30,302 nt of DNA from a virus. Where the stretch lies: positions 1 to 30,302 of IMG/VR virus record IMGVR_UViG_3300032287_002032. One strand, given 5' to 3'. Positions 2,449 to 14,306 of the stretch are shown piece after piece (positions within the stretch are counted from its first letter, which is position 1; the number at the start of each line of letters is the position of its first letter). Both the position numbers and the translations under genes were made by a program. Below the pieces are notes generated by a model. The model did no database searches. It saw only the letters and a program-made list of their open reading frames with translations, and was not told the origin of the DNA.

Positions 2449-2493
2449 TAGGGTACGTAAAGCAATATTTTTGCCCGTGCCCTTAGATTATGA

Positions 2494-2520: not shown

Positions 2521-2532
2521 CCTAACCTATCT

Positions 2533-4342: not shown

Positions 4343-5076
4343 TCGGTTCCCACCTTTCTATATTCGGGCACTTTAGTTTCTAAGTATATAGCATGGGTCT
4401 GACATTTTGCTACAGCCTCTAGGTCTGCCTCGCCAAGCCAGTTGCAGTTGCCACAGATTTCTCCGCAATCTTCTTCGCAGTACTCCATTTGGTCGGTTGC
4501 ATCACAATCACGACACATGTTGTCGTATTCTGATTCTGAGATAACTTCTCCACGGAGGAATTCCATTTCTCCACCCCAGCCTGTTTCTTCTTCATATGAT
4601 AAAGTAAATAGTAGTGTTGGGTATTGTGCAGATAGTTTAGATATAGCCCCAAGAGGTCGTGACCATGCAGTATTAAAGTTGTAATGAACTACATAGTTCT
4701 CACCGTTCTCGGCTTCCTCAATAGTTGTATCAGGATACTTATTGTCTTCTGCTACAGCCACATCCCATTTAGTTCCCCACTCACGCACATTGAAGTTGTA
4801 CCAGTCATTGGTCTCAAACTTCATTGCCTCAGAAAAATCGGTGGAACGAGGAGGTTGTCCATGATATACCTCATCAGTAATACCAGCATCTCTATAGTTA
4901 TATATATTATGAAAAGCAAAGATAGGATTAACATACTTAGTCTGCTTGACATCATATGCTAAATCACCTACTGCATTGATAGAATAAACAAATGGCTTAT
5001 TCATTTGCTTGATTAGAGATTTTACTTGCTCAGGATTACCTTCAATTGTTAATCCGTTATACACCCAGTTTGGCAT
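4339..5076 (-). CDS. Api92-like / DUF1281-type phage protein
   Basis: A 245-residue protein. The N-terminus MPNWVYNGLTIEGNPEQVKSL is the hallmark start of Api92-like proteins of phages and mobile elements, which have a ferredoxin-like fold of unknown biochemical role. A PLGAISKLSAQYPTLLFTLSYEEETGWGGE segment matches the family's later core (visible in two halves here: the Leu/Ser-rich strand and the Glu-rich GWGGE turn). The C-terminus carries a Cys-rich cluster (CRDC, CEEDC, CGNC) that probably binds zinc. I set the start at 5076 because the promoter and AACGAAAGGATA ribosome binding site lie inside any longer reading. First gene of a ten-gene operon. Confidence 0.8.
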   Translation of the reverse strand: MPNWVYNGLTIEGNPEQVKSLIKQMNKPFVYSINAVGDLAYDVKQTKYVNPIFAFHNIYNYRDAGITDEVYHGQPPRSTDFSEAMKFETNDWYNFNVREWGTKWDVAVAEDNKYPDTTIEEAENGENYVVHYNFNTAWSRPLGAISKLSAQYPTLLFTLSYEEETGWGGEMEFLRGEVISESEYDNMCRDCDATDQMEYCEEDCGEICGNCNWLGEADLEAVAKCQTHAIYLETKVPEYRKVGTE

Positions 5077-5104
5077 ATTTATATCCTTTCGTTGATATGT
5101 TCTA

Positions 5105-5126
5105 ATTATACAATGGACCACTGACA
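5105..5126 (-). promoter_or_regulatory. TGTCAG-N10-TATAAT promoter
   Basis: Minus strand TGTCAG (5126-5121), 10 bp, TATAAT (5110-5105). It drives the ten-gene operon. Two CRP-like palindromes lie 20-80 bp upstream of it. Confidence 0.7.
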
Positions 5127-5144
5127 AATGGAATAGAATTGGCA

Positions 5145-5187
5145 TGTGATACATGCCACATGATTCAGCTTTGTGGTCAAGATCACA
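5145..5187. promoter_or_regulatory. Two degenerate CRP/GlxR-type boxes
   Basis: TGTGATACATGCCACA (5145-5160) and TGTGGTCAAGATCACA (5172-5187) each differ at one position from TGTGA-N6-TCACA. The first is also the core of a palindrome, GGCATGT-GAT-ACATGCC. Confidence 0.5.
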
Positions 5188-5252
5188 CAAAATCCTGGGA
5201 AATGTATTTGACATTCGTAAAAACAATATGCTACCCTCAAGTCTTTGCGGGC

Positions 5253-5282
5253 AAAAGAAAACCCCCAGCTATAAGCTGGGGG
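5253..5282 (-). terminator. Strong intrinsic terminator, leftward
   Basis: Minus strand CCCCCAGCT-TAT-AGCTGGGGG, a 9-bp GC-rich stem with a tight loop, followed by TTTTCTTTT. One of the clearest factor-independent terminators in the window. Confidence 0.85.
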
Positions 5283-5400
5283 TATGAATATGGCTGCTGA
5301 TTTCCAACGAAAGAAATAAACCGCTTTACTTAGCGCCTGGCCATGAAGACTAAATAGACGCACCATTTCATTTCTATATTAAAACCAGGACCAAAGTCCT
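5253..5400 (-). ncRNA. Candidate structured RNA of about 150 nt
   Basis: A -10-like TATAAT with an extended TGG element overlaps the stop codon of the gene at 5408, and a strong terminator ends at 5253. Between them there is no convincing gene: the longest reading, MKWCVYLVFMARR, has no ribosome binding site. Small hairpins such as AGGAC-TTTG-GTCCT and CGCT-AAGTAA-AGCG are present. It may be an independent small RNA, or just a long 3' untranslated region of the upstream gene. The rest of 5077-5407 holds promoter and CRP-like sites. Confidence 0.4.
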
Positions 5401-5406
5401 AGTACT

Positions 5407-5412
5407 ATTATA
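5407..5412 (-). promoter_or_regulatory. Extended -10 element before the candidate RNA
   Basis: Minus strand ATGGTATAAT: a perfect -10 hexamer preceded by TG-N. No clear -35 box is visible at 16-18 bp and no TGTCAG at 10 bp. Confidence 0.4.
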
Positions 5413-5773
5413 CCATAACTAGTCGACTGTATTTATCTACGAATGCTGCGAGGGACGAGGTAAACACTACCGTGCTCAGGTCCTCTTCATACAATGTAAA
5501 CGTTTGATTGGACCAATCAATTACGGGCACCTTATGCTCATTATCTCCTAATTGATTAATGTAGATACCCCAGCCTGTTTTCTCAGTCCAGTCTTCTCCA
5601 ATTAGATTAGATATAGCAATACGTGTTGCATATGATTCATCCTGCCAGCGAGGCTCTGCAGCCTGCACAGCATTGGCCAACTTGGCTAGCATATTATGCC
5701 CAGCCCAGTGTCCATATAGAAATACTACATTTTCCTTGGAATCTCTGAATCCAAAGTTTGCTCTGTCACCCAT
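5408..5773 (-). CDS. Phage protein, GDRANFGF family look
   Basis: A 121-residue protein. The start MGDRANFGFRDSKENVVFLYGHWAGHNMLAKLANAV and the later GWGIYINQLGDNEHKVPVIDW give a compact alpha/beta fold that I recognise as a recurring phage hypothetical, but I cannot name a function. It is coupled to the DUF7455-like gene (TAA then ATG within 2 nt), with a GGCGGAA ribosome binding site. Confidence 0.8.
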   Translation of the reverse strand: MGDRANFGFRDSKENVVFLYGHWAGHNMLAKLANAVQAAEPRWQDESYATRIAISNLIGEDWTEKTGWGIYINQLGDNEHKVPVIDWSNQTFTLYEEDLSTVVFTSSLAAFVDKYSRLVMV

Positions 5774-5774
5774 T

Positions 5775-5984
5775 TTATTCCGCCGTTTCTAGTTGAGGGA
5801 TTGCTTCTTCCGTTTTGTTTAATTCTATCACTTCGTATGCGACCTTGTCAAGGCCACGCTTGCTTGCGTTGTAGTGGTGACCGCAAAAGAAAAGCTCACC
5901 ATCTACTAGTTTAACCATATACTTTGCTTGGGCTGTGCCACATTGGTCACATGCTATCCATCTTGTTAGATCTTCCATTGTCAT
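5775..5984 (-). CDS. DUF7455-like zinc protein
   Basis: Sixty-nine residues. CDQCG (C12, C15) followed about 19 residues later by FCGHHY (C34, H36, H37) matches DUF7455, a small zinc-binding family common in actinobacteria and their phages, usually 60-90 residues. The biochemical role is unknown. The ATG overlaps the upstream gene's TGA and has GGTGGAG upstream. This is one of the best clues to an actinobacterial host. Confidence 0.75.
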   Translation of the reverse strand: MTMEDLTRWIACDQCGTAQAKYMVKLVDGELFFCGHHYNASKRGLDKVAYEVIELNKTEEAIPQLETAE

Positions 5985-6127
5985 AGTGCTCCACCTTCAA
6001 TCATCTCAGAAAGACGATCAAGGATCCAGGAATCAATGTCGTTGATATCAATCTCTGATAACTTTTCCATGATTTCATCACGAGCAAACTTATACCCGTC
6101 GTCCCAACCATCTTTATAGTCTGACAT
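5981..6127 (-). CDS. 48-residue acidic protein
   Basis: Begins MSDYKDGWDDGYKFARDEIMEKL and is predicted to be helical. The YKDGWDDGYKFAR pattern is a common small phage protein motif of unknown role. GGAGAAATT upstream is a good ribosome binding site, and the 3' end overlaps the DUF7455-like ATG (ATGA). Confidence 0.7.
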   Translation of the reverse strand: MSDYKDGWDDGYKFARDEIMEKLSEIDINDIDSWILDRLSEMIEGGAL

Positions 6128-6136
6128 AATTTCTCC

Positions 6137-6340
6137 TTAATAACCTGTGGTTTCGTAGTCTGATATGTAAGATTCAGTTAAGTTATACTTATCACGAATT
6201 CTACTTACTTTCTCAATACTACCAGTTCCAATGTTGAATGTCAACGGTGACATTGCTTGCGGGTCCAGCCCCATGATTTGTGCATCCCAATAGGCCATCT
6301 CCATGGATAGCCTATCAGGAGCAGTCAACTCAAAATACAT
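6137..6340 (-). CDS. 67-residue phage protein
   Basis: Begins MYFELTAPDRLSMEMAYWDAQIMGLDPQAMSPLTF. No family recognised. The ATG overlaps the upstream stop (TAATG). It ends 9 nt before the next gene and the set reads as one operon. Confidence 0.75.
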   Translation of the reverse strand: MYFELTAPDRLSMEMAYWDAQIMGLDPQAMSPLTFNIGTGSIEKVSRIRDKYNLTESYISDYETTGY

Positions 6341-6807
6341 TAGCAGTTCTCCCTAATGTTACAGATTTCTTGGTCATTGACTTCAATGTTACCGTTATGT
6401 GAATCAGCATAAAGAGCATCTTCAATTTCTGAATCTAAATCAAAGTGGGTATCTTCAAGCAAGTTAACTGAAATAGTTCCGCTAACCTCAATAGATGCGG
6501 ACCATTCAATTTCTTTAACTAATTCAATCTCAAGTGCTTCTGCAATTGCTTGCAAAGTTTCTTGGTCTTCTGAATCAGCATATGCTTCTGAAATAATATC
6601 TTTAACTAAGCCAATCTTATTCTGTAAAGATGAGACTGCCTTAGAATTTGTGCGACCATTATGTAGTTCGTATTCAATGTTGCGAACTTTATCTGTAGCA
6701 TATTCAGCATCCGAATAACCACGGATTACTTTGTATGTAACTAATTGGTCAGGGTTGTACTTCTCTGCATCTGATAGAGGCAGGTTTTCTACTGTCATTC
6801 CGTCCAT
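6340..6807 (-). CDS. Internal short form without zinc ribbon
   Basis: A 155-residue product starting MDGMTVENLPLSDAEKY in the same frame as the long form. The start is supported by AACGAAAGAAGGAAG immediately upstream and a full TGTCAG-N10-TACAAT promoter about 35-55 bp upstream. This is the standard arrangement in this region, so the short form may be the main product. Acidic, with a strand-rich middle. Unknown role. It overlaps the next gene as TAATG. Confidence 0.7.
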   Translation of the reverse strand: MDGMTVENLPLSDAEKYNPDQLVTYKVIRGYSDAEYATDKVRNIEYELHNGRTNSKAVSSLQNKIGLVKDIISEAYADSEDQETLQAIAEALEIELVKEIEWSASIEVSGTISVNLLEDTHFDLDSEIEDALYADSHNGNIEVNDQEICNIRENC

Positions 6808-7014
6808 ATTGCTTCCTTCTTTCGTTTGGTTTAAGGATGTAATTGTAGCATGCTCCACTGACACTAATGTGGTCTTACGGCCACACGGGCATGTGAGTTC
6901 TGTCACACCTGACGGAAAGCCAAATCCATCAGATGATGTTAATTGAATTAAACAATCGCATTCGTCTGGGTCACAGACAAATGTATATACGCTTGAGACT
7001 AGTTCGTTGGTCAT
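6340..7014 (-). CDS. Zinc-ribbon protein, long form
   Basis: 224 residues from a leaderless-type ATG 7 nt after a TATAAT box. The N-terminal 65 residues form a zinc ribbon: FVCDPDECDC, then about 25 residues later LTCPCGR. The rest is acidic, with helices and a beta-rich section (EIEWSASIEVSGTISVNL). An internal promoter and ribosome binding site lie in the linker, so a shorter product from 6807 is also likely. It could instead represent two genes fused in frame. No enzymatic motif is visible. Confidence 0.65.
   Translation of the reverse strand: MTNELVSSVYTFVCDPDECDCLIQLTSSDGFGFPSGVTELTCPCGRKTTLVSVEHATITSLNQTKEGSNMDGMTVENLPLSDAEKYNPDQLVTYKVIRGYSDAEYATDKVRNIEYELHNGRTNSKAVSSLQNKIGLVKDIISEAYADSEDQETLQAIAEALEIELVKEIEWSASIEVSGTISVNLLEDTHFDLDSEIEDALYADSHNGNIEVNDQEICNIRENC
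6842..6863 (-). promoter_or_regulatory. TGTCAG-N10-TACAAT promoter inside a gene
   Basis: Minus strand TGTCAG (6863-6858), 10 bp, TACAAT (6847-6842). It lies within the coding sequence of the long zinc-ribbon protein and serves the internal start at 6807. Confidence 0.65.
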
Positions 7015-7021
7015 GTAGAGA

Positions 7022-7043
7022 ATTATACAGGACCCCACTGACA
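7022..7043 (-). promoter_or_regulatory. TGTCAG-N10-TATAAT promoter, leaderless
   Basis: Minus strand TGTCAG (7043-7038), 10 bp, TATAAT (7027-7022). The ATG at 7014 lies 7 nt after the -10 box, so unlike its siblings this promoter probably makes a leaderless mRNA. A one-mismatch CRP box, TGTGATACGTAACACA, lies at 7072-7087. Confidence 0.7.
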
Positions 7044-7116
7044 TTTACAATAGATTCCAGGGATTTTTTTATGTGATACGTAACACACTTTTTGCCCCCT
7101 TAGCATTGAGGGCGCT

Positions 7117-7193
7117 TGGCGATCCATAACGGACTTGAACCGTCGACCTCTACCGTGACAGGGTAGCGCTCTAACCAACTGAGCTAATGGACC
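7117..7193 (-). tRNA. tRNA-Asp (GTC)
   Basis: A full cloverleaf on the minus strand: acceptor GGTCCAT pairs with ATGGATC (one G-U pair), the D arm contains AGCTCAGTTGG, and the anticodon arm CTACC...GGTAG carries GTC at 7159-7157. The T arm contains GGTTCAAGTCC. Encoded CCA at 7119-7117 makes 77 nt. It probably rides on the transcript of the DUF932 gene upstream. Confidence 0.95.
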
Positions 7194-7240
7194 AAGAAAA
7201 ATTGTGAGCAGTTTTAAATCTTGCTCAGGATTTATTTTAT

Positions 7241-8248
7241 TTAGAACGCAGAAATTAATTTCTTAATTTTATTTTTTTCTGCGGTTAGCACTGGGTCAAA
7301 TCCTGATGCGCCAGCCATAAGCGTTTCAGAATTTCCGCGACCTGAGCGATAGTAGTCAAGGCGTTCGGTGAGAGCATTGAACGCACCCCATTTTGTTCCC
7401 TTGATGTTAGCGTTAGTTGGTGAATTATGGTAAAGGTCATCAAGCAAGACAACCTTGTTTTCCCACTTAGTAAGAGCAACCTTAGAAGCATCCTCAGCAG
7501 GCTTTGGATAAATTGTGTGAATCAACTTTGAGAATTCAGCATCAGTAATTGACTGAGAATAAAGTGCTTGCGCCTCTTTCTCAAATTCATCAAAGTAACC
7601 AAGAGCAAGCCCAAGAGTTTCACGAGCAACTTGAATGCGACCTTCAACAGATTGCGTGTGGCGAATCTTGAATGATTGCTTAGCATTACGCATCGCAAGA
7701 TTCAATGTGTTTTGGCATACAACACGAACAGGAGTAACGGCTGCTTGAACGGCAACTGAACCATCGTGTGATGTCCATACAATTAAATAGAGTTTAGTTT
7801 CATCATTGGCACCTTGTGGGTCAAGAACCATTGTGCGAGGAATATCAACAGTGCCGAATACAACTTTGCCCTTTTTCAATGAGCCAGCAGATTCCCAACG
7901 GCAATCAGCGTTCGCATCATGAATAGCATCAGCGAATGCGAATAATTCTTCATTCTGTACAGGCTTGTAACGCTTGCCAACAGTGGCAAGAACATCAGTT
8001 CCCTTATTGAATGGGTTGTCACGAATGACAAGAGATGCGGTAGAGACATCATTCCAAGATTCTGGAATATGCTCGGTGATTGGAGATAGACGAACATTCC
8101 AATTTGCCAACTTTGCTTCTTCAAGCATTAGGGCGGTAGTAACTTCTTCATCTTTTGTGAAGATGCGATTTGCTAGGTTATGCCAAGCAGGAGAGCCACG
8201 GAGAGCGAAAGCAACTTCGCCGTTTTCCATTTCTAGATTGTGAGCCAT
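7241..8248 (-). CDS. DUF932 phage/plasmid-like protein
   Basis: A 335-residue protein. The start MAHNLEMENGEVAFALRGSPAWHNLANR and the motifs FALRGSPAWH, VGKRYKPVQNEELF and RVVCQNTLNLA mark it as DUF932 (the phage/plasmid-like TIGR03299 type). The family is widespread on phages and plasmids and its role is unknown. Length is normal and the gene intact. I chose 8248 because AACGAAAGGTAAA lies just upstream and the longer reading runs through the promoter. It is followed by tRNA-Asp. Confidence 0.9.
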   Translation of the reverse strand: MAHNLEMENGEVAFALRGSPAWHNLANRIFTKDEEVTTALMLEEAKLANWNVRLSPITEHIPESWNDVSTASLVIRDNPFNKGTDVLATVGKRYKPVQNEELFAFADAIHDANADCRWESAGSLKKGKVVFGTVDIPRTMVLDPQGANDETKLYLIVWTSHDGSVAVQAAVTPVRVVCQNTLNLAMRNAKQSFKIRHTQSVEGRIQVARETLGLALGYFDEFEKEAQALYSQSITDAEFSKLIHTIYPKPAEDASKVALTKWENKVVLLDDLYHNSPTNANIKGTKWGAFNALTERLDYYRSGRGNSETLMAGASGFDPVLTAEKNKIKKLISAF

Positions 8249-8279
8249 ATATTTTTTACCTTTCGTTTGATTAGTCATA

Positions 8280-8301
8280 AGTATAACAGGTGCCACTGAC
8301 A
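8280..8301 (-). promoter_or_regulatory. TGTCAG-N10-TATACT promoter
   Basis: Minus strand TGTCAG (8301-8296), 10 bp, TATACT (8285-8280). It drives the DUF932 gene. Regulatory repeat A lies directly upstream, with its CRP-like palindrome centred about 75 bp before the inferred start site. Confidence 0.7.
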
Positions 8302-8334
8302 TTGTCTAGGATTAGATACAATATGTCCGAATTG

Positions 8335-8440
8335 ATCCATGTGATTAATCTCACAAAATTCCAGGGGTTTTCCACAGGCACCCGTAACCCTGTGGATAAC
8401 CCCTCAGCTATACGGGCCAGCTGCAGGATATGCAGCCAGT
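8335..8440. repeat. Regulatory repeat A (CRP box + DnaA boxes)
   Basis: Contains the perfect palindrome TGTGATTAATCTCACA (8340-8355), a CCAGGGG block, an inverted imperfect DnaA box TTTTCCACA (8368-8376), a perfect DnaA box TGTGGATAA (8391-8399), and a CCCGTA...TACGGG inverted repeat. Shares order and wording with repeats at about 10103, 11371 and 12383. Confidence 0.75.
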
Positions 8441-8449
8441 GTTAGATCT

Positions 8450-8704
8450 TTACAGACCTAACTCATCCCTAGTCAACTGATTCTTTCGATTGAAGTTAAT
8501 AACTTCGGACGGGAGGTAAAGAGCAGTTGTTTTAGTCTTCTTCAATGTATCATACACATAAGCACGTACATCACCAAAGAAGTTACGGCGATTAGAGAAT
8601 GCTAATTCAGTTAAGTATTCCTTATCAACGCCTTGCTCTGAATAAATTGTTACATCATTTAACTTGTTCTCATCATAGATTTCTACTCTGAAACGATTTT
8701 TCAT
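8450..8704 (-). CDS. 84-residue phage protein
   Basis: Begins MKNRFRVEIYDENKLNDVTIYSEQG, a basic alpha/beta small protein with no recognised family. The spacer between it and the upstream gene holds a UUCG-type hairpin (TCCC-TTCG-GGGA near 8730). It has no TGTCAG promoter of its own, so it is probably co-transcribed with the 140-residue gene upstream. Confidence 0.75.
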   Translation of the reverse strand: MKNRFRVEIYDENKLNDVTIYSEQGVDKEYLTELAFSNRRNFFGDVRAYVYDTLKKTKTTALYLPSEVINFNRKNQLTRDELGL

Positions 8705-8774
8705 TATTTGCCTTTGTTAGTAGTTGTCCCCGAAGGGAGAGCAGTTTAGCAACTTACTCAGGTTGTTGGATTAT

Positions 8775-9197
8775 TTACAGATAACGAGCAACCGCATTGT
8801 AAGTGCTGGTATTAACAACTTCCTCATCTGTCATTTTAAGAATACGAATTGCGTTTTCCATTTCCTCTTTCATCTCATTGTATGAGTGGCGGTGGATTAC
8901 TTCGTAGTCCTTTTCAGGTTCAGCAGGGAAAGTTCCCTCTTTTGTGATGATGTCAAAATCAACATTAAGAGTGTTGTTCCAGTTGCGATAGTTTGTGCGT
9001 AGGTTTTCAGCCTTTGAGAAGTTAGCAATAGCCCACTTTCCAATTTCCTTTTTCCACGCTTCTACTTGCTTGTTATACTTTGCTTCGTTTGCTTCCTGTG
9101 AAGCAAAGTCCTTATTAAGTTGAGCCAACTTAGTTTCTAGTGCCTTGATTACTCGCTGAGTTGGGATTTTCACCGAGATTGCTTTTCCTCTAGCCAT
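8775..9197 (-). CDS. Helical phage protein, unknown
   Basis: A 140-residue protein beginning MARGKAISVKIPTQRVIKALETKLAQLNKDF. Residues 15-60 are a strong heptad-like helix, probably a coiled coil, followed by an aromatic middle and an acidic C-terminal helix. AACGAAAGAAGGAAACAA precedes the ATG. No domain recognised. Confidence 0.8.
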   Translation of the reverse strand: MARGKAISVKIPTQRVIKALETKLAQLNKDFASQEANEAKYNKQVEAWKKEIGKWAIANFSKAENLRTNYRNWNNTLNVDFDIITKEGTFPAEPEKDYEVIHRHSYNEMKEEMENAIRILKMTDEEVVNTSTYNAVARYL

Positions 9198-9236
9198 TTG
9201 TTTCCTTCTTTCGTTGTTGTTTGGTTTGGTTGAGTA

Positions 9237-9258
9237 ATTATAGCAGGGGGGTCTGACA
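9237..9258 (-). promoter_or_regulatory. TGTCAG-N10-TATAAT promoter in a C/G hairpin
   Basis: Minus strand TGTCAG (9258-9253), 10 bp, TATAAT (9242-9237). The spacer is ACCCCCCTGC. Together with a CAGGGGGGTC arm further upstream (9263-9273 region) it forms a perfect 10-bp inverted repeat, so the box could be exposed in a cruciform or bound as a dyad. Confidence 0.7.
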
Positions 9259-9283
9259 TTTCTGCGACCCCCCTGTTTTTAGA

Positions 9284-9466
9284 TTATACGCCTAGTAAGG
9301 TTTGAGCAGATACCGAAGTCCAACGAGTTTCTTTCGTTGGCATTTCTAGTAGCACACGCACCGAGCCAGATGTTTGTGGGTGGATTTCCTTAATCACACC
9401 TGTCTTTTTTGACTTTAGGGTGGTGAATAAATCGCCAACCTTGTAAGTGTATCCATTTACTGTCAT
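9284..9466 (-). CDS. Small KOW/Tudor-like beta-barrel protein
   Basis: Sixty residues beginning MTVNGYTYKVGDLFTTLKSKKTGVIKEI. The VGDLF..LKS-K-TG-I-EI and VRVLLEM patterns suggest a small five-strand barrel like KOW/SH3-type nucleic-acid or protein binders, a common phage hypothetical. I chose 9466 because AGAGG lies 6 nt upstream and the promoter overlaps the longer reading. The fold is an inference from pattern only. Confidence 0.7.
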   Translation of the reverse strand: MTVNGYTYKVGDLFTTLKSKKTGVIKEIHPQTSGSVRVLLEMPTKETRWTSVSAQTLLGV

Positions 9467-9495
9467 TTGTTGCCTCTTTTCTTTGTTAGGGTTGT

Positions 9496-9517
9496 AGTAT
9501 AGCATTGGGGTCTGACA
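9496..9517 (-). promoter_or_regulatory. TGTCAG-N10-TATACT promoter (CCCC class)
   Basis: Minus strand TGTCAG (9517-9512), 10 bp spacer ACCCCAATGC, TATACT (9501-9496). It serves the 60-residue gene. A one-mismatch CRP box, TGTGACCTTAGTCACT (9556-9571), lies upstream. Confidence 0.7.
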
Positions 9518-9562
9518 TTAGTCTAGCCCTATCTCATTATTTGAGAAAGTTATTGTGTGACC

Positions 9563-9829
9563 TTAGTCACTTTCAGGTAGCCAAGCGTCTAAGTGGTGTT
9601 GTTCGATAATAGCCCACGCGGGCGCATGAGAGTCACCCTTATAAGATACGCCTTCAGGCATTTCGATCAATTTATTATAGTCCTCATCATAGTATGCATC
9701 AATAGCATCAATGCAAGGTTGCACCATAGAAAGCGGAACGGGTGGGTAATGATTACCCTGTAAGTGATAGCCTAGTGCTACTTCTAAATCTAATTCATTA
9801 GATAAATCTAACGCTGTATTGTATCCCAT
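9563..9829 (-). CDS. 88-residue phage protein
   Basis: Begins MGYNTALDLSNELDLEVALGYHLQGNHYPPVPLSMVQ. The GYHLQGNHYPPVP and DAYYDEDYNKLIEMPEGVSYKG segments look conserved, since such aromatic/proline wording recurs in small phage proteins, but no function is known to me. It overlaps the upstream gene by a single base (TAATG). Confidence 0.8.
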   Translation of the reverse strand: MGYNTALDLSNELDLEVALGYHLQGNHYPPVPLSMVQPCIDAIDAYYDEDYNKLIEMPEGVSYKGDSHAPAWAIIEQHHLDAWLPESD

Positions 9830-10032
9830 TATTCTGCCACCTTTAGTATTGCGTAAGAGCCATTAGCATTTATTTCATCAAGAATTGGTTGTAGTCGGCT
9901 ACCGACTAAATCTTTTAGCATTGACTCTAGCATAAAGATACGAGTAGCCTCATCAAGCATTTGCACTTGCTGAGTAACTGGGTGGCCGTCCTTAAACTCT
10001 GTAACGAATTTTAGATTATGTTCTACTATCAT
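9829..10032 (-). CDS. 67-residue phage protein
   Basis: Begins MIVEHNLKFVTEFKDGHPVTQQVQMLDEATRIF: a beta hairpin followed by helices. The ATG follows AACGAAAGGCAA, and a TGTCAG promoter lies just upstream with repeat B behind it. First of two coupled genes. Unknown. Confidence 0.8.
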   Translation of the reverse strand: MIVEHNLKFVTEFKDGHPVTQQVQMLDEATRIFMLESMLKDLVGSRLQPILDEINANGSYAILKVAE

Positions 10033-10063
10033 TTTTATTGCCTTTCGTTGTTGGTATAAGAGT

Positions 10064-10085
10064 ATTATAGCCTATGCCACTGACA
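10064..10085 (-). promoter_or_regulatory. TGTCAG-N10-TATAAT promoter
   Basis: Minus strand TGTCAG (10085-10080), spacer TGGCATAGGC, TATAAT (10069-10064). The 22-bp core is identical to the promoter at 11303-11324. The CRP palindrome is centred about 70 bp upstream of the inferred start. Confidence 0.75.
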
Positions 10086-10102
10086 TTACCTAATCCATTC
10101 TC

Positions 10103-10195
10103 GGCGTGTCGCAGCTTTTGTGAGATTAATCACAAAATCCAGGGGGTTGTGGATAAGTACCGTAACCCTGTGGATAACCCCGCAGCTTTACGGGC
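10103..10195. repeat. Regulatory repeat B (CRP box + paired DnaA boxes)
   Basis: Order: GGCGTGTCG (10103-10111), TGTGAGATTAATCACA (10119-10134), CCAGGGGG, DnaA box TGTGGATAA (10148-10156), a second identical box in the same orientation (10169-10177), then a CCGTAA...TTACGG inverted repeat. The two DnaA boxes start 21 bp apart, two turns of the helix. Confidence 0.8.
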
Positions 10196-10260
10196 GGGCA
10201 GCGTCATTGATCAAATTTATTTTTATGTTTTATTTTTCTAAAATATTTTTTCTTATTGCG

Positions 10261-10298
10261 TACAGGTTGCGTCGCATTACTGCGACGCAATTCCTGTA
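10261..10298 (-). terminator. Long hairpin after the 11008-10310 operon
   Basis: TACAGG, then GCGTCGCA-TTAC-TGCGACGC, closed by CCTGTA: a two-tier stem of 8 and 6 bp. It lies just downstream of the leftward gene ending at 10310. An A/T-rich but not U-only tract follows. About 65 nt of AT-rich DNA without a gene separates it from repeat B. Confidence 0.65.
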
Positions 10299-10309
10299 TG
10301 CGTTTAACT

Positions 10310-10501
10310 TTATCTCGAAGTGAATTTTGTGACATGGTATCCACACGCTTCATGAAATCGGTTTACATCAAATCGCTCATTATCTTGTGCGAACATAACT
10401 GCGAAATCATTTACAATTTTAGAAAATAAAGCAGGGTGCGCTTTATCACTAGCAAAGTTTAGAATTTCTGCCACTGCGACATAATCTTTTCTTGTCATCA
10501 T
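10310..10501 (-). CDS. MTRKDY-type small phage protein
   Basis: Sixty-three residues starting MMTRKDYVAVAEILNFASDK, with a later FAVMFAQDNERFDVNRFHEAC. This wording recurs in small proteins of many unrelated phages. It is helical, and its role is unknown to me. It overlaps the upstream gene (ATGA). Last gene of a four-gene operon. Confidence 0.8.
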   Translation of the reverse strand: MMTRKDYVAVAEILNFASDKAHPALFSKIVNDFAVMFAQDNERFDVNRFHEACGYHVTKFTSR

Positions 10502-10701
10502 TTTGTTACGACCATTCCGCTACGATAGAAAATTTTTGTGTAGCATTTTCCGCTGGGTGTAAATAAATTTACAGTTGAGTATTCATTAGCAAAACCCCAA
10601 TCGGTGAAAGAAAAAAAATCTTTCCACGCTTCGAATTCATCATTAAACGGCTTACTCCAATGCGGAGCATTTTCATCATAAGCAACAGTTATTTTATACA
10701 T
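10498..10701 (-). CDS. 67-residue aromatic-rich protein
   Basis: Begins MYKITVAYDENAPHWSKPFNDEFEAWKDFFSFTDWG. Rich in Phe and Trp, with a probable small alpha/beta fold resembling other phage proteins that start with a short strand and a helix, but not assignable. Overlaps upstream as TAATG. Confidence 0.75.
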   Translation of the reverse strand: MYKITVAYDENAPHWSKPFNDEFEAWKDFFSFTDWGFANEYSTVNLFTPSGKCYTKIFYRSGMVVTK

Positions 10702-10844
10702 TAGTCATTTTCTCCGTTCCAAAATAGTGAGCCGTCATCTACGCAATCGCAAGGCTCGCAATCAAAATCATTGTCATCACCAAAAAAGATTACGCCATGA
10801 CCTAAGCAATCTTGACAATCTATTGTTAATACTGAGTTAATCAT
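10701..10844 (-). CDS. 47-residue zinc-knuckle protein
   Basis: Begins MINSVLTIDCQDCLGHGVIFFGDD and carries CQDC, His and CEPCDC, enough ligands for one zinc site. Very acidic. It interlocks with both neighbours by TAATG overlaps. Possibly a truncated DnaJ-type zinc knuckle, given CxxCxGxG-like spacing (CQDCLGHG), but only one repeat is present. Confidence 0.7.
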   Translation of the reverse strand: MINSVLTIDCQDCLGHGVIFFGDDNDFDCEPCDCVDDGSLFWNGEND

Positions 10845-11008
10845 TAGTGTTGTTCCTCGCAATCTTTGTCATAGTCAAATCCGCAAAAGTAGCAACCCAT
10901 AAATTCTAGGTGTTCGATACAGTAATACTTAAATTGACTTTCATCACAACAAAAATGTTGCTCGTCTGCGATTTCATAGAAATCGGTTTTGTCGATTATG
11001 TTTAACAT
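10844..11008 (-). CDS. 54-residue Cys-rich acidic protein
   Basis: Begins MLNIIDKTDFYEIADEQHFCC and contains CC, YYC, CYFC and a late Cys, with several His, so a metal site is likely. AACGAAAGGAAAACT precedes the ATG. First gene of the operon driven by the promoter at 11037. Unknown function. Confidence 0.7.
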   Translation of the reverse strand: MLNIIDKTDFYEIADEQHFCCDESQFKYYCIEHLEFMGCYFCGFDYDKDCEEQH

Positions 11009-11036
11009 AGTTTTCCTTTCGTTTGTTTATTTTGTA

Positions 11037-11058
11037 ATTATAGCGGATAGCACTGACA
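11037..11058 (-). promoter_or_regulatory. TGTCAG-N10-TATAAT promoter
   Basis: Minus strand TGTCAG (11058-11053), spacer TGCTATCCGC, TATAAT (11042-11037). The upstream gene ends only 3 bp beyond TGTCAG, so any further control site would lie inside that gene. Confidence 0.7.
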
Positions 11059-11060
11059 AA

Positions 11061-11270
11061 TTAGTCAGATACCCTGACCGCAATGGTTGCCCAAAAGTTT
11101 TTAATTCCGCGTGTAGGGCGAACCTCGATAGCGTAAGCCTCTAGGTTTTCTCCGTACCAAATTCCTTCACGCTTTGTAGCGTATAGAATAGTACCCTCAT
11201 CATGGCGAGAGTGTGAGCGATAGTGTTTTCCCTCTAAGAGGCTTTCGATAGTGTATGCTTTTGCTGACAT
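11061..11270 (-). CDS. 69-residue basic protein
   Basis: Begins MSAKAYTIESLLEGKHYRSHSRHDEGTILYATKRE. Basic, strand-rich, with a possible small beta-barrel. No family recognised. AACGAAAGGTGACAACTC precedes the ATG. Single-gene transcript behind regulatory repeat C. Confidence 0.75.
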   Translation of the reverse strand: MSAKAYTIESLLEGKHYRSHSRHDEGTILYATKREGIWYGENLEAYAIEVRPTRGIKNFWATIAVRVSD

Positions 11271-11302
11271 GAGTTGTCACCTTTCGTTTGTTGATACTGG
11301 CA

Positions 11303-11324
11303 ATTATAGCCTATGCCACTGACA
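11303..11324 (-). promoter_or_regulatory. TGTCAG-N10-TATAAT promoter
   Basis: Minus strand TGTCAG (11324-11319), spacer TGGCATAGGC, TATAAT (11308-11303). Core identical to the 10064 promoter, which argues for recent duplication or strong constraint. Confidence 0.75.
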
Positions 11325-11370
11325 TTTTCACATTACTAGCGAGTAATTCCACATTTTGAGACGCTCAAGC

Positions 11371-11496
11371 CGTGTGATAAAAATCACAAAATCTCGGGCG
11401 TGTCGCAAATTCCAGGGGTTGTGGATAAGTCCCGTAACCCTGTGGATAACCCCGCTCTTTTGCGGGCGCATCAGCTTTTGTCAAGCCGACACGCCG
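11371..11496. repeat. Regulatory repeat C (CRP box + paired DnaA boxes)
   Basis: Holds TGTGATAAAAATCACA (11373-11388), GGCGTGTCG (11397-11405), CCAGGGG, DnaA boxes at 11420-11428 and 11441-11449 (same strand, 21 bp apart), a CCCGC-TCTTTT-GCGGG hairpin, and CGACACGCC (11487-11495). The last pairs with the GGCGTGTCG arm and closes a loop around the DnaA boxes. Confidence 0.8.
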
Positions 11497-11500
11497 TTGC

Positions 11501-11596
11501 TTATTCGAAATCTTTAAAAATTTCTTCAAGCTTTAAGATTTGCTCATCGGTAAGATGATCAATTTCAATTGCTTTTTCAAATCCAAAAAAATCCAT
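11501..11596 (-). CDS. 31-residue acidic mini-protein
   Basis: Begins MDFFGFEKAIEIDHLTDEQIL and is a single acidic helix after a short hydrophobic start. Accepted because its ATG overlaps the upstream TAA (TAATG) and it fills the space before repeat C. It is the last gene of a six-gene leftward operon. Very short, so only moderate confidence. Confidence 0.55.
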   Translation of the reverse strand: MDFFGFEKAIEIDHLTDEQILKLEEIFKDFE

Positions 11597-11790
11597 TATT
11601 CATTTTCCATTTCTGCTAAATAATCTTCATGTTCAATTAGTCCGATTGAAAAAGCGATTGGGTCGCAACATTCCAAAATTTCGGCGGGAGTAAAAGTTGA
11701 ATAACCAATTTTTACAGTAGGATAAACATCATTTAGTAAATCAATAAAACTTTCTTTAATTTCTAAATCTTTTTCGAAATCTGATTTCAT
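11596..11790 (-). CDS. 64-residue conserved-looking phage protein
   Basis: Begins MKSDFEKDLEIKESFIDLLND; the motif YPTVKIGYSTFTPAEILECCDPIAFSIG is wording I associate with a recurrent small phage protein family of unknown function. Acidic. Overlaps both neighbours (ATGA and TAATG). Confidence 0.8.
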   Translation of the reverse strand: MKSDFEKDLEIKESFIDLLNDVYPTVKIGYSTFTPAEILECCDPIAFSIGLIEHEDYLAEMENE

Positions 11791-11936
11791 TCGCTTAACT
11801 CCAAATCTTTTATGTCGGCAACATAAACATTATCTTTATTTATTCCGTATTTTAATTGAAATTGAAATACATCAATGGCTTCATCATAATCTTCTGCTTC
11901 TACATCTATGTAGGTTAGAAATTGAAAAGTTTTCAT
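11787..11936 (-). CDS. 49-residue acidic protein
   Basis: Begins MKTFQFLTYIDVEAEDYDEAI and has a ferredoxin-like strand-helix look. ATGA and TAATG overlaps with the neighbouring genes support it. Unknown. Confidence 0.65.
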   Translation of the reverse strand: MKTFQFLTYIDVEAEDYDEAIDVFQFQLKYGINKDNVYVADIKDLELSE

Positions 11937-12100
11937 TATTTAACTCCCTTGTATAAAAAATCCCACGCCTTACGGCATAACAAAATGCTTTCGCAATTAT
12001 CGCAACAAATAACACCATGAGGGTTTAATTCATAGTCATACATGTCGATTGTGGTAGATACCGCACCACATACGGATTTAATCGGAACAAAAGTGCTCAT
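11936..12100 (-). CDS. 54-residue Cys-containing protein
   Basis: Begins MSTFVPIKSVCGAVSTTIDMY and carries CCDNCESILLC after an early Cys, a plausible zinc knuckle. Overlaps the previous gene by ATGA and the next by TAATG. Unknown function. Confidence 0.65.
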   Translation of the reverse strand: MSTFVPIKSVCGAVSTTIDMYDYELNPHGVICCDNCESILLCRKAWDFLYKGVK

Positions 12101-12282
12101 TTAGTTAAACTCCAATCGGAATAAAATGGTAAGCGGTCATAGTCATCATAGAAATAAACTCTATCTATGTTCTGCTCGCATGTTTCGCAGAAAGTGTATT
12201 CGACATCTACACCCATGCCATAGGTAGTAGATACGCTCTCCATGTGTGGAGTGTGTGTATGTGTATTTGTTAGTGTAGTCAT
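12097..12282 (-). CDS. 61-residue His/Cys protein
   Basis: Begins MTTLTNTHTHTPHMESVSTTYG, with a His-rich start and one CETC pair, so metal binding is possible. I chose the ATG at 12282, which lies 8 nt after AAAGG; an in-frame GTG three codons earlier overlaps that site. First gene of the operon, behind a TGTCAG promoter and repeat D. Confidence 0.7.
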   Translation of the reverse strand: MTTLTNTHTHTPHMESVSTTYGMGVDVEYTFCETCEQNIDRVYFYDDYDRLPFYSDWSLTK

Positions 12283-12313
12283 GGTGACCACCTTTCTTTT
12301 TCGTTATGGTAGT

Positions 12314-12335
12314 ATTTTACCACGGGGGTCTGACA
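12314..12335 (-). promoter_or_regulatory. TGTCAG-N10-TAAAAT promoter (CCCC class)
   Basis: Minus strand TGTCAG (12335-12330), spacer ACCCCCGTGG, TAAAAT (12319-12314). The CRP palindrome of repeat D is centred about 85 bp upstream of the inferred start, the same distance as in repeat C. Confidence 0.65.
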
Positions 12336-12382
12336 TTTATCTACCTACTAGCCAGTAATTCCAAATATTGAGACGCTCAGCC

Positions 12383-12517
12383 TATGTGATAGTAATCACA
12401 AAATCTCGGGCGTGTCGTGCTTGCAAAACCTGGGGGTTGTGGATAACCCCCGTAACCCTGTGGATAACTCCCGCAAGTACTTGCGGGCCAGCTTGACATT
12501 GTCAAGCCGACACGCCG
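12383..12517. repeat. Regulatory repeat D (CRP box + paired DnaA boxes)
   Basis: Holds TGTGATAGTAATCACA (12385-12400), GGCGTGTCG (12409-12417), DnaA boxes at 12438-12446 and 12459-12467 (same strand, 21 bp apart), a perfect CCCGCAAG-TA-CTTGCGGG hairpin, a GCTTGACA-T-TGTCAAGC palindrome (about 12492-12508), and CGACACGCC (12508-12516) pairing with GGCGTGTCG. The most elaborate copy of the four. Confidence 0.8.
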
Positions 12518-12522
12518 TTAGG

Positions 12523-12642
12523 CTAGTGTGAGTTAGCCCACTCTCTAAAGTCCGCTACGATCTCACGCCACATCATGCGCCCCATAATAAGGGCGGGAAC
12601 GATAAGGGCTAACTGTACTAGTGTAGTTAGTAGTCTATTCAC
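12523..12642 (-). CDS. 39-residue single-TM protein, GTG start
   Basis: Begins (M)NRLLTTLVQLALIVPALIMG, one membrane helix, then a soluble WREIVADFREW segment. The GTG has GAGGAATAAATA upstream and overlaps the previous stop by one base. Preceded by AACGAAAG. The promoter is inside the previous gene. Confidence 0.6.
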   Translation of the reverse strand: MNRLLTTLVQLALIVPALIMGRMMWREIVADFREWANSH

Positions 12643-12782
12643 TATTTATTCCTCTTTCGTTTAATTACTTTATAAATTATAACACCTACCACCGACAAGA
12701 TAAGACATGCCCATGATAGAGATACATAAAGGAAATCCCCTAGGTCAAGCATTAGCCCGTATTCGTTTAGTTCGATAGTCAT
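12642..12782 (-). CDS. 46-residue single-TM protein
   Basis: Begins MTIELNEYGLMLDLGDFLYVS, then a hydrophobic helix (about residues 19-38) and a basic tail KVIKRKRNK, giving an N-out, C-in type pattern. GGAGGGCTAATAC gives a strong ribosome binding site. Its 3' coding region contains a TGTCAG-type promoter for the next membrane peptide, so two small membrane proteins are linked. Confidence 0.65.
   Translation of the reverse strand: MTIELNEYGLMLDLGDFLYVSLSWACLILSVVGVIIYKVIKRKRNK
12676..12697 (-). promoter_or_regulatory. Variant TGTCGG-N10-TATAAT promoter in a coding region
   Basis: Minus strand TGTCGG (12697-12692), 10 bp, TATAAT (12681-12676), read as codons of the 46-residue membrane protein. 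The spacing is kept despite coding constraint. Confidence 0.55.
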
Positions 12783-12785
12783 GTA

Positions 12786-12968
12786 TTAGCCCTCCCATGT
12801 AAGTGAGTATAGTTTTGCTAGTTCGTCTGTATCTTCATCATTAAACTCATCTAGTGGAGGTTGTTCCTCATCTACCTCATCAAGGTATGTGTATGCGTCT
12901 GCGACATCTTCTTGGATAGTATCCCATTTAGATACGCTGTTAGTTTCGTATGAGTATGCGTATGACAT
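12786..12968 (-). CDS. 60-residue very acidic protein
   Basis: Begins MSYAYSYETNSVSKWDTIQED and has a Tyr-rich start and a long Asp/Glu-rich middle (DEVDEEQPPLDEFNDEDTDEL). Net charge is strongly negative, like DNA mimics or inhibitors, but there is no direct evidence. Overlaps upstream by TAATG. Confidence 0.7.
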   Translation of the reverse strand: MSYAYSYETNSVSKWDTIQEDVADAYTYLDEVDEEQPPLDEFNDEDTDELAKLYSLTWEG

Positions 12969-13081
12969 TATTTATTCATCTCCTTAGCAATAGCGTTTGA
13001 TTTAGTTAGTGCCTCTAGCGCTACGGCTAGAGAGGCAAGGCGTTGCGCCTCTACCATTTGCTTGTATTCATCTAGTGTCAT
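12968..13081 (-). CDS. 37-residue helical mini-protein
   Basis: Begins MTLDEYKQMVEAQRLASLAVA and ends with KEMNK: one long amphipathic helix. Supported by TAATG overlaps at both ends and a GCGAAAGGTAG sequence upstream. Unknown. Confidence 0.55.
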   Translation of the reverse strand: MTLDEYKQMVEAQRLASLAVALEALTKSNAIAKEMNK

Positions 13082-13230
13082 TATTTAGTTTCTACCTTTC
13101 GCATGTGTGCTACTACATTTTTAGAAATCTTTTGTAAATCTTTAACTGTCTTAGTCATCTCATCTACGCTATTAGCGGTTTGGTATCCGAGGAATTGTGA
13201 GCCGTCCCAGATTGTGTATGTGATTGTCAT
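13081..13230 (-). CDS. 49-residue phage protein
   Basis: Begins MTITYTIWDGSQFLGYQTANS: a beta hairpin followed by a basic helix. AACGAAAGAAGAACAGTAA precedes the ATG. First gene of the unit driven by the 13266 promoter. Confidence 0.65.
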   Translation of the reverse strand: MTITYTIWDGSQFLGYQTANSVDEMTKTVKDLQKISKNVVAHMRKVETK

Positions 13231-13265
13231 TTACTGTTCTTCTTTCGTTAGTTGGTTATAATGGA

Positions 13266-13287
13266 ATTGTAGCCTATTGGACTGACA
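13266..13287 (-). promoter_or_regulatory. TGTCAG-N10-TACAAT promoter
   Basis: Minus strand TGTCAG (13287-13282), spacer TCCAATAGGC, TACAAT (13271-13266). A perfect CRP box, TGTGATACTAGTCACA (13316-13331), is centred about 65 bp upstream of the inferred start and overlaps the stop codon of the preceding gene. Confidence 0.7.
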
Positions 13288-13315
13288 TTATCAAGGTGAC
13301 ACGCACCATGTGGCA

Positions 13316-13331
13316 TGTGATACTAGTCACA
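13316..13331. promoter_or_regulatory. Perfect CRP/GlxR-type palindrome
   Basis: TGTGATACTAGTCACA. It lies over the end of the 58-residue gene, so the palindrome is kept within coding and stop sequence. Confidence 0.65.
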
Positions 13332-13499
13332 CTCTCCGCATGGGCATTGAGGAAACTCTCGTTCTTGCTTAATGCGGTTAGCGAGTTGCTCAACCTTCAT
13401 GTATGTATCGAATGAGGCACCTCTAAAGGATACACACTCTCCGTCTGCTATCATGTGAGCAGCCTTAGCAATCTTTTGTTCTAATGTTAGTGAAGTCAT
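13323..13499 (-). CDS. 58-residue protein with C-terminal Cys cluster
   Basis: Begins MTSLTLEQKIAKAAHMIADGE, helical, and ends QCPCGECD, a likely zinc or metal knuckle at the very C-terminus. AACGAAAGGAAGTTAAA precedes the ATG. It is the first leftward gene next to the divergent region. Function unknown. Confidence 0.7.
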   Translation of the reverse strand: MTSLTLEQKIAKAAHMIADGECVSFRGASFDTYMKVEQLANRIKQEREFPQCPCGECD

Positions 13500-13532
13500 T
13501 TTAACTTCCTTTCGTTTGTTTGTTATACCTTA

Positions 13533-13554
13533 AGCATAGCAGGGGGGTCTGACA
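13533..13554 (-). promoter_or_regulatory. TGTCAG-N10-TATGCT promoter (CCCC class)
   Basis: Minus strand TGTCAG (13554-13549), spacer ACCCCCCTGC (identical to the 9237 promoter), TATGCT (13538-13533). Rightmost member of the family. Confidence 0.65.
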
Positions 13555-13588: not shown

Positions 13589-13604
13589 TGTGAGGTAAGT
13601 CACA
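13589..13604. promoter_or_regulatory. Perfect CRP/GlxR-type palindrome
   Basis: TGTGAGGTAAGTCACA, centred about 70 bp upstream of the inferred leftward start near 13526. Confidence 0.65.
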
Positions 13605-13613
13605 AAATAATCG

Positions 13614-13629
13614 TGTGAGATACATCACA
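13614..13629. promoter_or_regulatory. Second perfect CRP/GlxR-type palindrome
   Basis: TGTGAGATACATCACA, starting 25 bp from the previous one. Tandem sites suggest cooperative binding at the head of the leftward block. Confidence 0.65.
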
Positions 13630-14217: not shown

Positions 14218-14292
14218 GGGCCTATAGCTTAATCTGGTTAAAGCAATTGTCTTATATGCAATCGACTTTGGGTTCAAATCCCAATAGGCCTA
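14218..14292 (+). tRNA. tRNA-Ile (TAT)
   Basis: A 75-nt cloverleaf: acceptor GGGCCTA with TAGGCCT (a G-U end pair), D arm GCTT...AAGC, anticodon arm ATTGT-CTTATAT-GCAAT with anticodon TAT at 14253-14255, and a perfect T stem TTGGG/CCCAA. No encoded CCA. It reads AUA codons, which are frequent in the neighbouring genes but usually rare in actinobacterial hosts. Confidence 0.85.
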
Positions 14293-14306
14293 CAAAGGAG
14301 TAGAAT

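Follow-up and report, generated by a model that had tools for sequence, protein, structure and literature searches.

Four intergenic repeats (A−D) in the viral record IMGVR_UViG_3300032287_002032 carry sequences of the host DnaA-box type, and the question they raise is whether these serve as phage replication origins, as sites that titrate host DnaA or as DnaA-controlled promoters, the three possibilities put forward when the sequence alone was read. An exact scan of the window (the whole analysed stretch of 30,302 nucleotides) returned the same seven perfect TGTGGATAA boxes as that sequence-only reading, all on the + strand and within the four repeats (Table 1), with no further exact copy; on the strand of the leftward genes they match the DnaA box consensus TTATCCACA exactly. 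The paired boxes of B, C and D have, as claimed, the same orientation and starts 21 bp apart, and the 12-base spacer between them terminates in CCGTAACCC in all three. The statement that chance cannot give this was borne out for the perfect boxes, with seven in the 6.5 kb DUF932 upstream region against 0.08 expected (500 Markov resamples, maximum 2). With one mismatch allowed, the whole window held 16 boxes against 9.7 expected, and 2 of 100 shuffles reached 16. This modest excess indicates that the box signal resides in the perfect copies. Pairing at 21 bp is not unique either, since at least 18 of the 117 viral contig stretches listed contained such tandem pairs; among these listed matches, two of the 18 belonged clearly, by eye, to the same group. 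Repeat A has a second box that had been overlooked, degenerate and of opposite orientation. The GGCGTGTCG/CGACACGCC inverted repeat reported to enclose two copies surrounds C and D and only these, B having a single GGCGTGTCG and A none, and it is therefore not a principle common to all four. Over the window, Rfam returned two tRNAs only and nothing at the repeats, which places them outside any known RNA family.

The boxes, correctly seen, are part of a larger arrangement. Read along the transcription of the leftward genes, the module consists of a hairpin, the DnaA box pair, a perfect TGTGA-N6-TCACA palindrome of CRP/GlxR type and a promoter-like TGTCAG-N10-TATAAT; the earlier account had the boxes and their spacing right and missed the CRP-type sites, promoters and hairpins. 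Box, palindrome and promoter-like site occur together in 4/4 repeats, with the palindrome upstream of the promoter-like site each time. The 6.5 kb DUF932 upstream region contained 7 palindromes and 9 promoters, against 0.006 and 0.008 expected, respectively, and palindromes with up to two mismatches showed no enrichment in the window (23 vs 18). Promoters that lack DnaA boxes are also preceded by CRP-type sites, whose preferred positions are spaced by about 10 bp, and only 9 of the 15 window promoters had a palindrome (≤1 mismatch) within 200 bp. The palindrome-to-promoter distance was helix-phased (R 0.70 at 10.5 bp for 101 perfect sites) in a set of 245 promoters from relatives thinned at 70% ungapped identity, whose remaining sequences are related, so that this value rests on kin. 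For the window by itself phasing was weak, with p 0.035 at 10.5 bp for 12 distances and p 0.13 for the 8 perfect sites. The boxes were weakly phased to the promoter (R 0.25–0.29, p 0.013–0.003 at 10.5–11 bp), and for this reason a role for them as phased contact activators was rejected. The promoter core is conserved, with a weak −35.

Table 1. Positions of the module elements of repeats A−D and of neighbouring features in the window.
Feature	Position	Strand	Match or score
Promoter-like site of A, TGTCAG-N10-TATACT, upstream of DUF932 gene	8280..8301	-	no mismatch
CRP/GlxR-type palindrome of A, TGTGATTAATCTCACA	8340..8355	.	perfect
Degenerate DnaA box of A, TGTGGAAAA	8368..8376	-	1 mismatch
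DnaA box of A, TGTGGATAA (= TTATCCACA in gene direction)	8391..8399	+	exact
Hairpin region of A: weak CCC..GGG stem beside box, then strong stem	8401..8439	-	z -2.97 vs mononucleotide shuffles
Promoter-like site of B, TGTCAG-N10-TATAAT	10064..10085	-	no mismatch
GGCGTGTCG motif, single copy in B	10103..10111	+	–
CRP/GlxR-type palindrome of B, TGTGAGATTAATCACA	10119..10134	.	perfect
DnaA box of B, copy 1	10148..10156	+	exact
DnaA box of B, copy 2 (start-to-start 21 bp)	10169..10177	+	exact
Hairpin of B, CCCGTAAAGCTGCGGG in gene direction	10179..10194	-	stem present; folding z only -0.91
Promoter-like site of C, TGTCAG-N10-TATAAT	11303..11324	-	no mismatch
CRP/GlxR-type palindrome of C, TGTGATAAAAATCACA	11373..11388	.	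perfect
GGCGTGTCG, inverted-repeat arm around C	11397..11405	+	–
DnaA box of C, copy 1	11420..11428	+	exact
DnaA box of C, copy 2 (start-to-start 21 bp)	11441..11449	+	exact
Hairpin of C, CCCGCAAAAGAGCGGG in gene direction	11451..11466	-	z -3.16
CGACACGCC, second inverted-repeat arm around C	11487..11495	-	–
Promoter-like site of D, TGTCAG-N10-TAAAAT	12314..12335	-	1 mismatch
CRP/GlxR-type palindrome of D, TGTGATAGTAATCACA	12385..12400	.	perfect
GGCGTGTCG, inverted-repeat arm around D	12409..12417	+	–
DnaA box of D, copy 1	12438..12446	+	exact
DnaA box of D, copy 2 (start-to-start 21 bp)	12459..12467	+	exact
Hairpin of D, CCCGCAAGTACTTGCGGG in gene direction	12470..12487	-	z -4.84
CGACACGCC, second inverted-repeat arm around D	12508..12516	-	–
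Synteny anchor downstream of A: DUF932 gene, 335 aa counted from this ATG	7241..8248	-	PF06067, 5.9e-56
Perfect CRP-type palindrome, promoter without DnaA box (promoter-like 6842-6863, 1 mismatch)	6892..6907	.	
Perfect CRP-type palindrome, promoter without DnaA box (promoter-like 13266-13287, 1 mismatch)	13316..13331	.	
Perfect CRP-type palindromes at 13589 and 13614, both upstream of promoter-like 13533-13554 (1 mismatch), no DnaA box	13589..13629	.	

The repeat was also sought in related phages, which were sampled via the DUF932 gene and not via the repeat itself. The module was kept in 80/80 of the DUF932 loci taken (from 268 relatives, the best 80), the gene being preceded within 250 bp by a perfect box, a perfect palindrome and the promoter. 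Alignment of 55 distinct regions showed variable spacers, with full or near invariance of box 1, the two palindrome arms, TGTCAG and most of the −10. With each box unit directly upstream of a palindrome and a leftward promoter-like site, a combination that all 80 close relatives share, DnaA-controlled promoters fit best among the three possibilities initially named. Maintenance by spread instead of regulation, with the repeats as mobile or recombination units (MITE-like or module-shuffling), would agree with the 88% identity of C and D across 72 nt and with the GGCGTGTCG/CGACACGCC arms around them. This explanation is disfavoured and seems extremely improbable, given that conservation is limited to the motifs, that orthologous units lie upstream of the same gene in all 80 loci and that A and B have no inverted ends; moreover, a search of a plasmid collection with C gave no match, and a search of a phage collection with B gave three chance-level matches only (E ~0.9). 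When one genome per bacterial or archaeal species was searched, the sole match to the tandem was in a Treponema MAG, by eye inside a long open frame, and was for that reason taken as a coincidence.

In two relatives of about 115 kb, one segment of about 12 kb contained 15/15 palindromes, 29/30 promoters and 10/12 boxes, and transcription in this segment ran mostly opposite to the rest of the contig. The IMG/VR contigs, classed there as linear fragments, are presumably of freshwater origin, judging by similar sample numbers, an assumption that carries no weight as evidence. Perfect boxes numbered 4 and 8 per contig in these two near-complete relatives, against 1.7 and 1.4 expected by chance, and box number ranged from 1 to 8 per 6.5 kb in close relatives (66 loci). 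More distant DUF932 loci (G+C <0.55, n = 53, 305 kb) held 65 boxes, 49 palindromes and 146 promoters, against 2.6, 0.5 and 0.5 expected, respectively; 24 of the 53 were without a box, 32 without a palindrome and 22 without a promoter of this type. Other box layouts occur among distant relatives, with three boxes 14 bp apart beside a promoter-like sequence in L312, oriC-like arrays in L290, L307, L339 and L346, and 9 perfect plus 4 near boxes in the array of L290. The latter would fit a datA-like role, in which the boxes titrate or inactivate host DnaA, halting host replication, and adjacency to promoters is secondary, as would the clustering of perfect boxes in intergenic DNA of the early region. 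Nevertheless, the few perfect boxes per near-complete contig, their variable number among close relatives and the linkage of boxes to hairpin, palindrome and promoter make titration, which had been named as a possibility, unlikely as the main function, though possible as a secondary one.

Replication origins found little agreement with the data. One or more repeats acting as DnaA-dependent phage origins would be consistent with the paired consensus boxes, with the oriC-like arrays of distant relatives and with the DnaB-type helicase encoded in 6/10 related contigs and 2/2 Streptomyces records. The A+T content beside the hairpin is slightly higher in the B type (0.65 vs 0.58), the main element classes ranging from 0.59 to 0.65 against 0.58 at boxless promoters, with only the B type slightly richer. 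On the other hand, the four copies are dispersed and each is tied to a promoter, and Streptomyces relatives with the same gene order have no boxes in the homologous region (0 across 20 loci). GC skew showed no switch at the boxes in the two near-complete relatives, where it follows the coding strand, and was uninformative as an origin marker. An origin function is thus very unlikely, and this part of the sequence-only reading is unsupported.

The hairpins accompany box 1 more often than random positions, as stems of at least 6 bp ending within 4 nt of box 1 were present in 69 of 135 distinct sequences but at just 270 of 2000 positions drawn at random. In selected elements both partners of two stem pairs change, a count that admits only sequences able to pair and is biased towards structure, 15 of 75 sequences being without such a stem. 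The hairpin of B folded no better than shuffles, and no terminator-like site (G+C-rich hairpin followed by a T run) was found on the minus strand at A−D, despite the hairpin.

Taken together, these features led us to consider, at about even probability, that the modules are early promoters at which host CRP/GlxR serves as activator and host DnaA supplies a second input, perhaps by forming a roadblock behind a terminator hairpin. The four repeats would be regulatory modules of the early (host take-over) region of a phage, each with a terminator-like hairpin after the preceding gene, directly followed by a single or paired DnaA box of host type and then by a CRP/GlxR-type site and the promoter. 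On entry, host RNA polymerase would transcribe the early genes, their promoters activated by host cAMP-CRP/GlxR bound at helix-phased distances, with host DnaA on the boxes providing the second input. A DnaA role in blocking or insulating against transcription that reads through from the gene before is favoured over contact activation because box 1 is nearly fixed behind the hairpin, and its distance to the promoter is variable and weakly phased. Such an effect has been described for asnC/mioC in E. coli, and blocking of RNA polymerase by DnaA at its box is reported in work cited by PMC11317965. Binding-site sequences for two host master regulators also suggest that the virus senses the state of its host when switching on its first genes. 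A bolder and rather improbable version is that cAMP-CRP/GlxR would report the carbon status of the host to the phage and DnaA its replication competence, both at once, and that DnaA together with the hairpin would form a conditional terminator or insulator that shields or opens each early gene according to the amount and nucleotide state of host DnaA.

The main competitor to host regulators is a phage-encoded regulator of an early regulon, for which the palindrome, and perhaps the boxes too, would be operators resembling host sites by convergence or mimicry. Streptomyces relatives carry repeated palindromes of other sequence in a similar place (TGGCGCCGGGCGCC-like in Coruscant, TGTCCGGGGCGGACA-like in Paradiddles), which could mean such a regulator; operator swapping between genera is typical for phage regulators. 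The proteins of the relatives were checked against four families only, and many early genes lack a functional assignment. Within the relatives searched, no Crp-type HTH (0/10 contigs), DnaA C-terminal domain (0/10) or Sigma70_r2 domain (0/12) was detected. Two unrelated host consensuses, the DnaA 9-mer and the CRP/GlxR palindrome, are exact within one module, and the box recurs in quite different layouts among distant relatives, so that a phage-encoded regulator is possible but doubtful.

No description of such a phage module was found in the literature searched. The viruses appear to infect actinobacteria. The gene order of the Streptomyces Stanwilliamsviridae (cluster BE), with the DUF932 and lysis genes leftward and ribonucleotide reductase rightward, is also present here, with protein identities of 51% and 66% at best. 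Small leftward genes are common to both, and many of them have a repeated palindrome of their own upstream; Coruscant has 15 copies of a 43-nt unit with a TGGCGCCGGGCGCC-like core, and 14 of these are no more than about 130 bp from a leftward gene start. Cluster BE phages have a terminal repeat of about 11 kb with 20–25 ORFs (PMC5764925), to which the 12 kb segment probably corresponds by synteny, and Paradiddles has two copies of the DUF932 gene. The Streptomyces phages differ in their operator sequences; the four records read lack a perfect TTATCCACA over their first 12 kb and TGTGA-N6-TCACA over their first 22 kb. GlxR, mostly an activator, has the consensus TGTGANNTANNTCACA (PMC4254451), and the palindromes of the window fit its frame; they are, however, candidate sites at phage promoters, and its central TA is absent from all four (inner six TTAATC, GATTAA, TAAAAA and TAGTAA). 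In lambda, host DnaA binds the control region near promoters (pO/pR), but the boxes there only resemble the consensus, are located downstream of pO and form no repeated promoter module (PMC3985674). The DnaA regulon and datA of E. coli share with the window the 9-mer and intergenic sites for transcription or titration (PMC11317965, PMC5835720); E. coli DnaA favours boxes 2–3 bp apart, against the 12 bp gap in B−D, and a single consensus box is a poor predictor of binding (PMC11317965). Bacteriophage T5, an unrelated phage, carries its pre-early genes in a long terminal repeat and has DnaA boxes and inverted repeats for which an interaction with host components is proposed (PMC13250531). Its first 12 kb contain only 3 perfect boxes (one inside annotated iss), none paired at 21 bp, and no CRP-type palindrome, and the boxes of the window are spread over four intergenic sites among the early genes instead of forming one noncoding block, rich in boxes and repeats, that would mark the inner end of first-step DNA as in a T5-type injection stop signal. 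Should the module bind CRP/GlxR and DnaA of the host, the first gene expression of a widespread actinobacteriophage group would be coupled directly to two global host regulators, a coupling conserved enough for detection by sequence alone; this would provide testable early promoters for phages without a cultured host and a natural example of DnaA acting in phage transcription or termination, and the module could be compared with the box-bearing terminal repeat of T5.

The four intergenic repeats A-D (8335, 10103, 11371 and 12383) were read on the minus strand because the neighbouring genes run leftward. In that direction they aligned as a single module, composed of a hairpin, TTATCCACA, GGGTTACGG, a second match to the DnaA 9-mer consensus (box), a perfect TGTGA-N6-TCACA palindrome of the CRP/GlxR type and then a AATGTCAG-N10-TATAAT-like sequence; in A, the second box was degenerate and inverted. 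A motif scan of the window, an IMG/VR virus record of 30,302 bases, recovered the seven TGTGGATAA boxes reported in the sequence-only reading, together with the 21-bp spacing described there. The motifs TACTnGCnAGTA and GAGACGCTCA, located between palindrome and promoter, were common to C and D (11334-11367 and 12346-12379) and missing in A and B. The combination of a hairpin-coupled box pair, a phased activator-like palindrome and a promoter with a weak -35 is best explained, as judged from sequence, by early promoter modules that rely on host regulators, which would act through the box pair and the palindrome. CRP-type activation is the better supported half of this reading, compared with the DnaA half.

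The window contained eight perfect palindromes. Those with up to two mismatches were not enriched (23 versus 18 expected), and for this reason only perfect or near-perfect palindromes were counted. The promoter-like sequence TGTCAG-N10-TATAnT was present 11 times without mismatch, always on the minus strand (2141 to 11324), and 30 times with up to two mismatches, versus 14 expected. This leftward family spans 2141-13554 on the minus strand, with TGTCAG placed within the -35/-10 spacer; where -35 hexamers were listed at 17-18 bp, they were weak. Of 15 such promoter-like sites, 9 had a palindrome (no more than one mismatch) within 200 bp, and four, namely A-D, had a perfect DnaA box. Other features are listed in the table.

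Coordinates of further features in the window and in two related contigs
Feature	Sequence	Position	Strand or orientation
tRNA-Asp(gtc) gene	window	7117-7193	-
tRNA-Ile(tat) gene	window	14218-14293	+
Low-complexity PFFPPFFP-type repeat, ending a long open frame (28992 to window end)	window	30062-30302	
Motif-bearing segment	116.5-kb contig	68.9-80.8 kb	mostly opposite to rest
Motif-bearing segment	115.0-kb contig	41.4-52.6 kb	mostly opposite to rest

The phasing of the palindromes was evaluated on 245 promoters retained after thinning at 70% ungapped identity, with 101 perfect palindromes. Measured from the final base of the -10, 83 of these were centred within 2 bp of 47.5, 57.5, 67.5 or 77.5 bp, nine at 62.5 bp (B type) and nine at greater distances. 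Phasing to the promoter reached R = 0.70 at 10.5 bp for the 101 sites, with a p-value that is too strong, since indel-bearing orthologues were still included. Restricted to the window, the test gave p = 0.035 on 12 distances, of which the two at promoter 13533 were taken by hand, and p = 0.13 on the eight perfect palindromes. Box-to-promoter phasing was weaker (R = 0.17-0.29).

Box 1, the DnaA box next to the hairpin in the direction of the leftward genes, was found 0-4 nt behind it. Stems of at least 6 bp were present at box 1 in 69 of 135 distinct sequences, versus 270 of 2000 random positions; stems of at least 4 bp are frequent by chance (111/135 versus 1098/2000). Such a stem was present in 60 of 75 distinct elements, in which pair 4 was G-C, C-G or T-A and pair 5 was C-G, T-A or A-T. 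Folding z values against mononucleotide shuffles were -4.8, -3.2, -3.0 and -0.9 for D, C, A and B, respectively. No T run followed the hairpin, and a terminator scan gave no minus-strand site at A-D. Because the box keeps a fixed position behind the hairpin while its distance to the promoter varies, a putative block or insulator role for DnaA is favoured over contact activation, with repression, activation or titration as further candidates. Tandem consensus boxes in viral contigs generally (at least 120 stretches) favoured spacings of 12-13, 20-22, 32-34 and 40-42 bp, and 20 of 181 pairs were 21 bp apart; the helical spacing claimed earlier was thus upheld, but as a recurrent arrangement that is also found outside these repeats. 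The register favoured by DnaA of E. coli is 11-12 bp, with a gap of 2-3 bp (PMC11317965).

The exact box tandem was detected in 66 stretches of IMG/VR contigs of up to 116.5 kb. Relatives were also sampled through the DUF932 gene downstream of A, instead of the repeat, against selection bias. A perfect box, palindrome and promoter occurred within 250 bp upstream of this gene in 80/80 loci (the best 80 of 268 relatives), which are close relatives and partly the same contigs as the exact-tandem stretches. Among the 66 loci with 6.5 kb upstream, the count per locus ranged from 1 to 8 for boxes (mean 5.0), from 4 to 9 for palindromes and from 5 to 11 for promoters. When 55 distinct A regions were aligned, the motifs were invariant or nearly invariant and were separated by variable spacers.

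In the contigs of 116.5 and 115.0 kb, respectively, a single segment held 7/7 and 8/8 perfect palindromes, 14/15 and 15/15 promoters and 4/4 and 6/8 boxes, with 1.7 and 1.4 boxes per contig expected by chance. In G001, the contig of locus L066, the sole promoter of this family outside the early segment (98334) lies just upstream of a same-strand whiB gene (98135-98308). Gene order and orientation around DUF932, with a lysis gene leftward and ribonucleotide reductase rightward, are the same in the Streptomyces phages Angela, Yaboi, Coruscant and Paradiddles; their DUF932 gene lies inside a terminal repeat of ~11 kb (PMC5764925), and Paradiddles has two copies of this gene. This synteny suggests that the window segment is a terminal repeat. 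WhiB genes were found in 6/10 related contigs and 2/2 Streptomyces records and, together with the kinship to Streptomyces phages, point to a probable actinobacterial host. DnaA domain IV and Crp-type HTH were each detected in 0/10, Sigma70_r2 in 0/12 and DnaB helicase in 8/12; several of these contigs are fragments.

A wider DUF932 sample led by Streptomyces proteins (the best 80 of at least 563 relatives), in which several genomes were counted twice with both terminal-repeat copies matched, divided in two among loci with more than 1 kb upstream. The 20 Streptomyces-like loci had no boxes or palindromes, whereas the 53 others had 65 boxes, 49 palindromes and 146 promoters (2.6, 0.5 and 0.5 expected), with at least one box in 29, one palindrome in 21 and one promoter in 31. 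Among distant relatives, L312 presented, by eye, three boxes 14 bp apart immediately before a TTGACT..TAGTAT sequence, and others had single or paired boxes ahead of different promoter-like sequences. Triple boxes or near-boxes in 14-bp steps lie directly upstream of early genes in both L312 and L315. At the distant locus L290, nine perfect and four near boxes in both orientations formed an oriC-like array, which lies upstream of the DUF932 gene by ~6.1-6.3 kb. At locus L340, several copies of GGCGTGTCG, which may be another protein-binding motif, cluster near a box ~3.8 kb upstream of the DUF932 gene.

Searches of open-access papers on DnaA boxes, repeats and titration in phages, on early promoters of the CRP/GlxR type and on this phage family gave no description of such a module. 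Coruscant (L070 1399-11235) and Paradiddles (L071 1-12000) have operator-like palindromes of their own, repeated upstream of early genes that run leftward. These palindromes of different sequence in similar positions in Streptomyces relatives make a phage-encoded regulator as the binder the strongest counter-reading to host regulators. The first 12 kb of T5 lack a TGTGA-N6-TCACA-type palindrome and contain three perfect boxes, and DnaA boxes are described within the T5 injection stop signal (PMC13250531).
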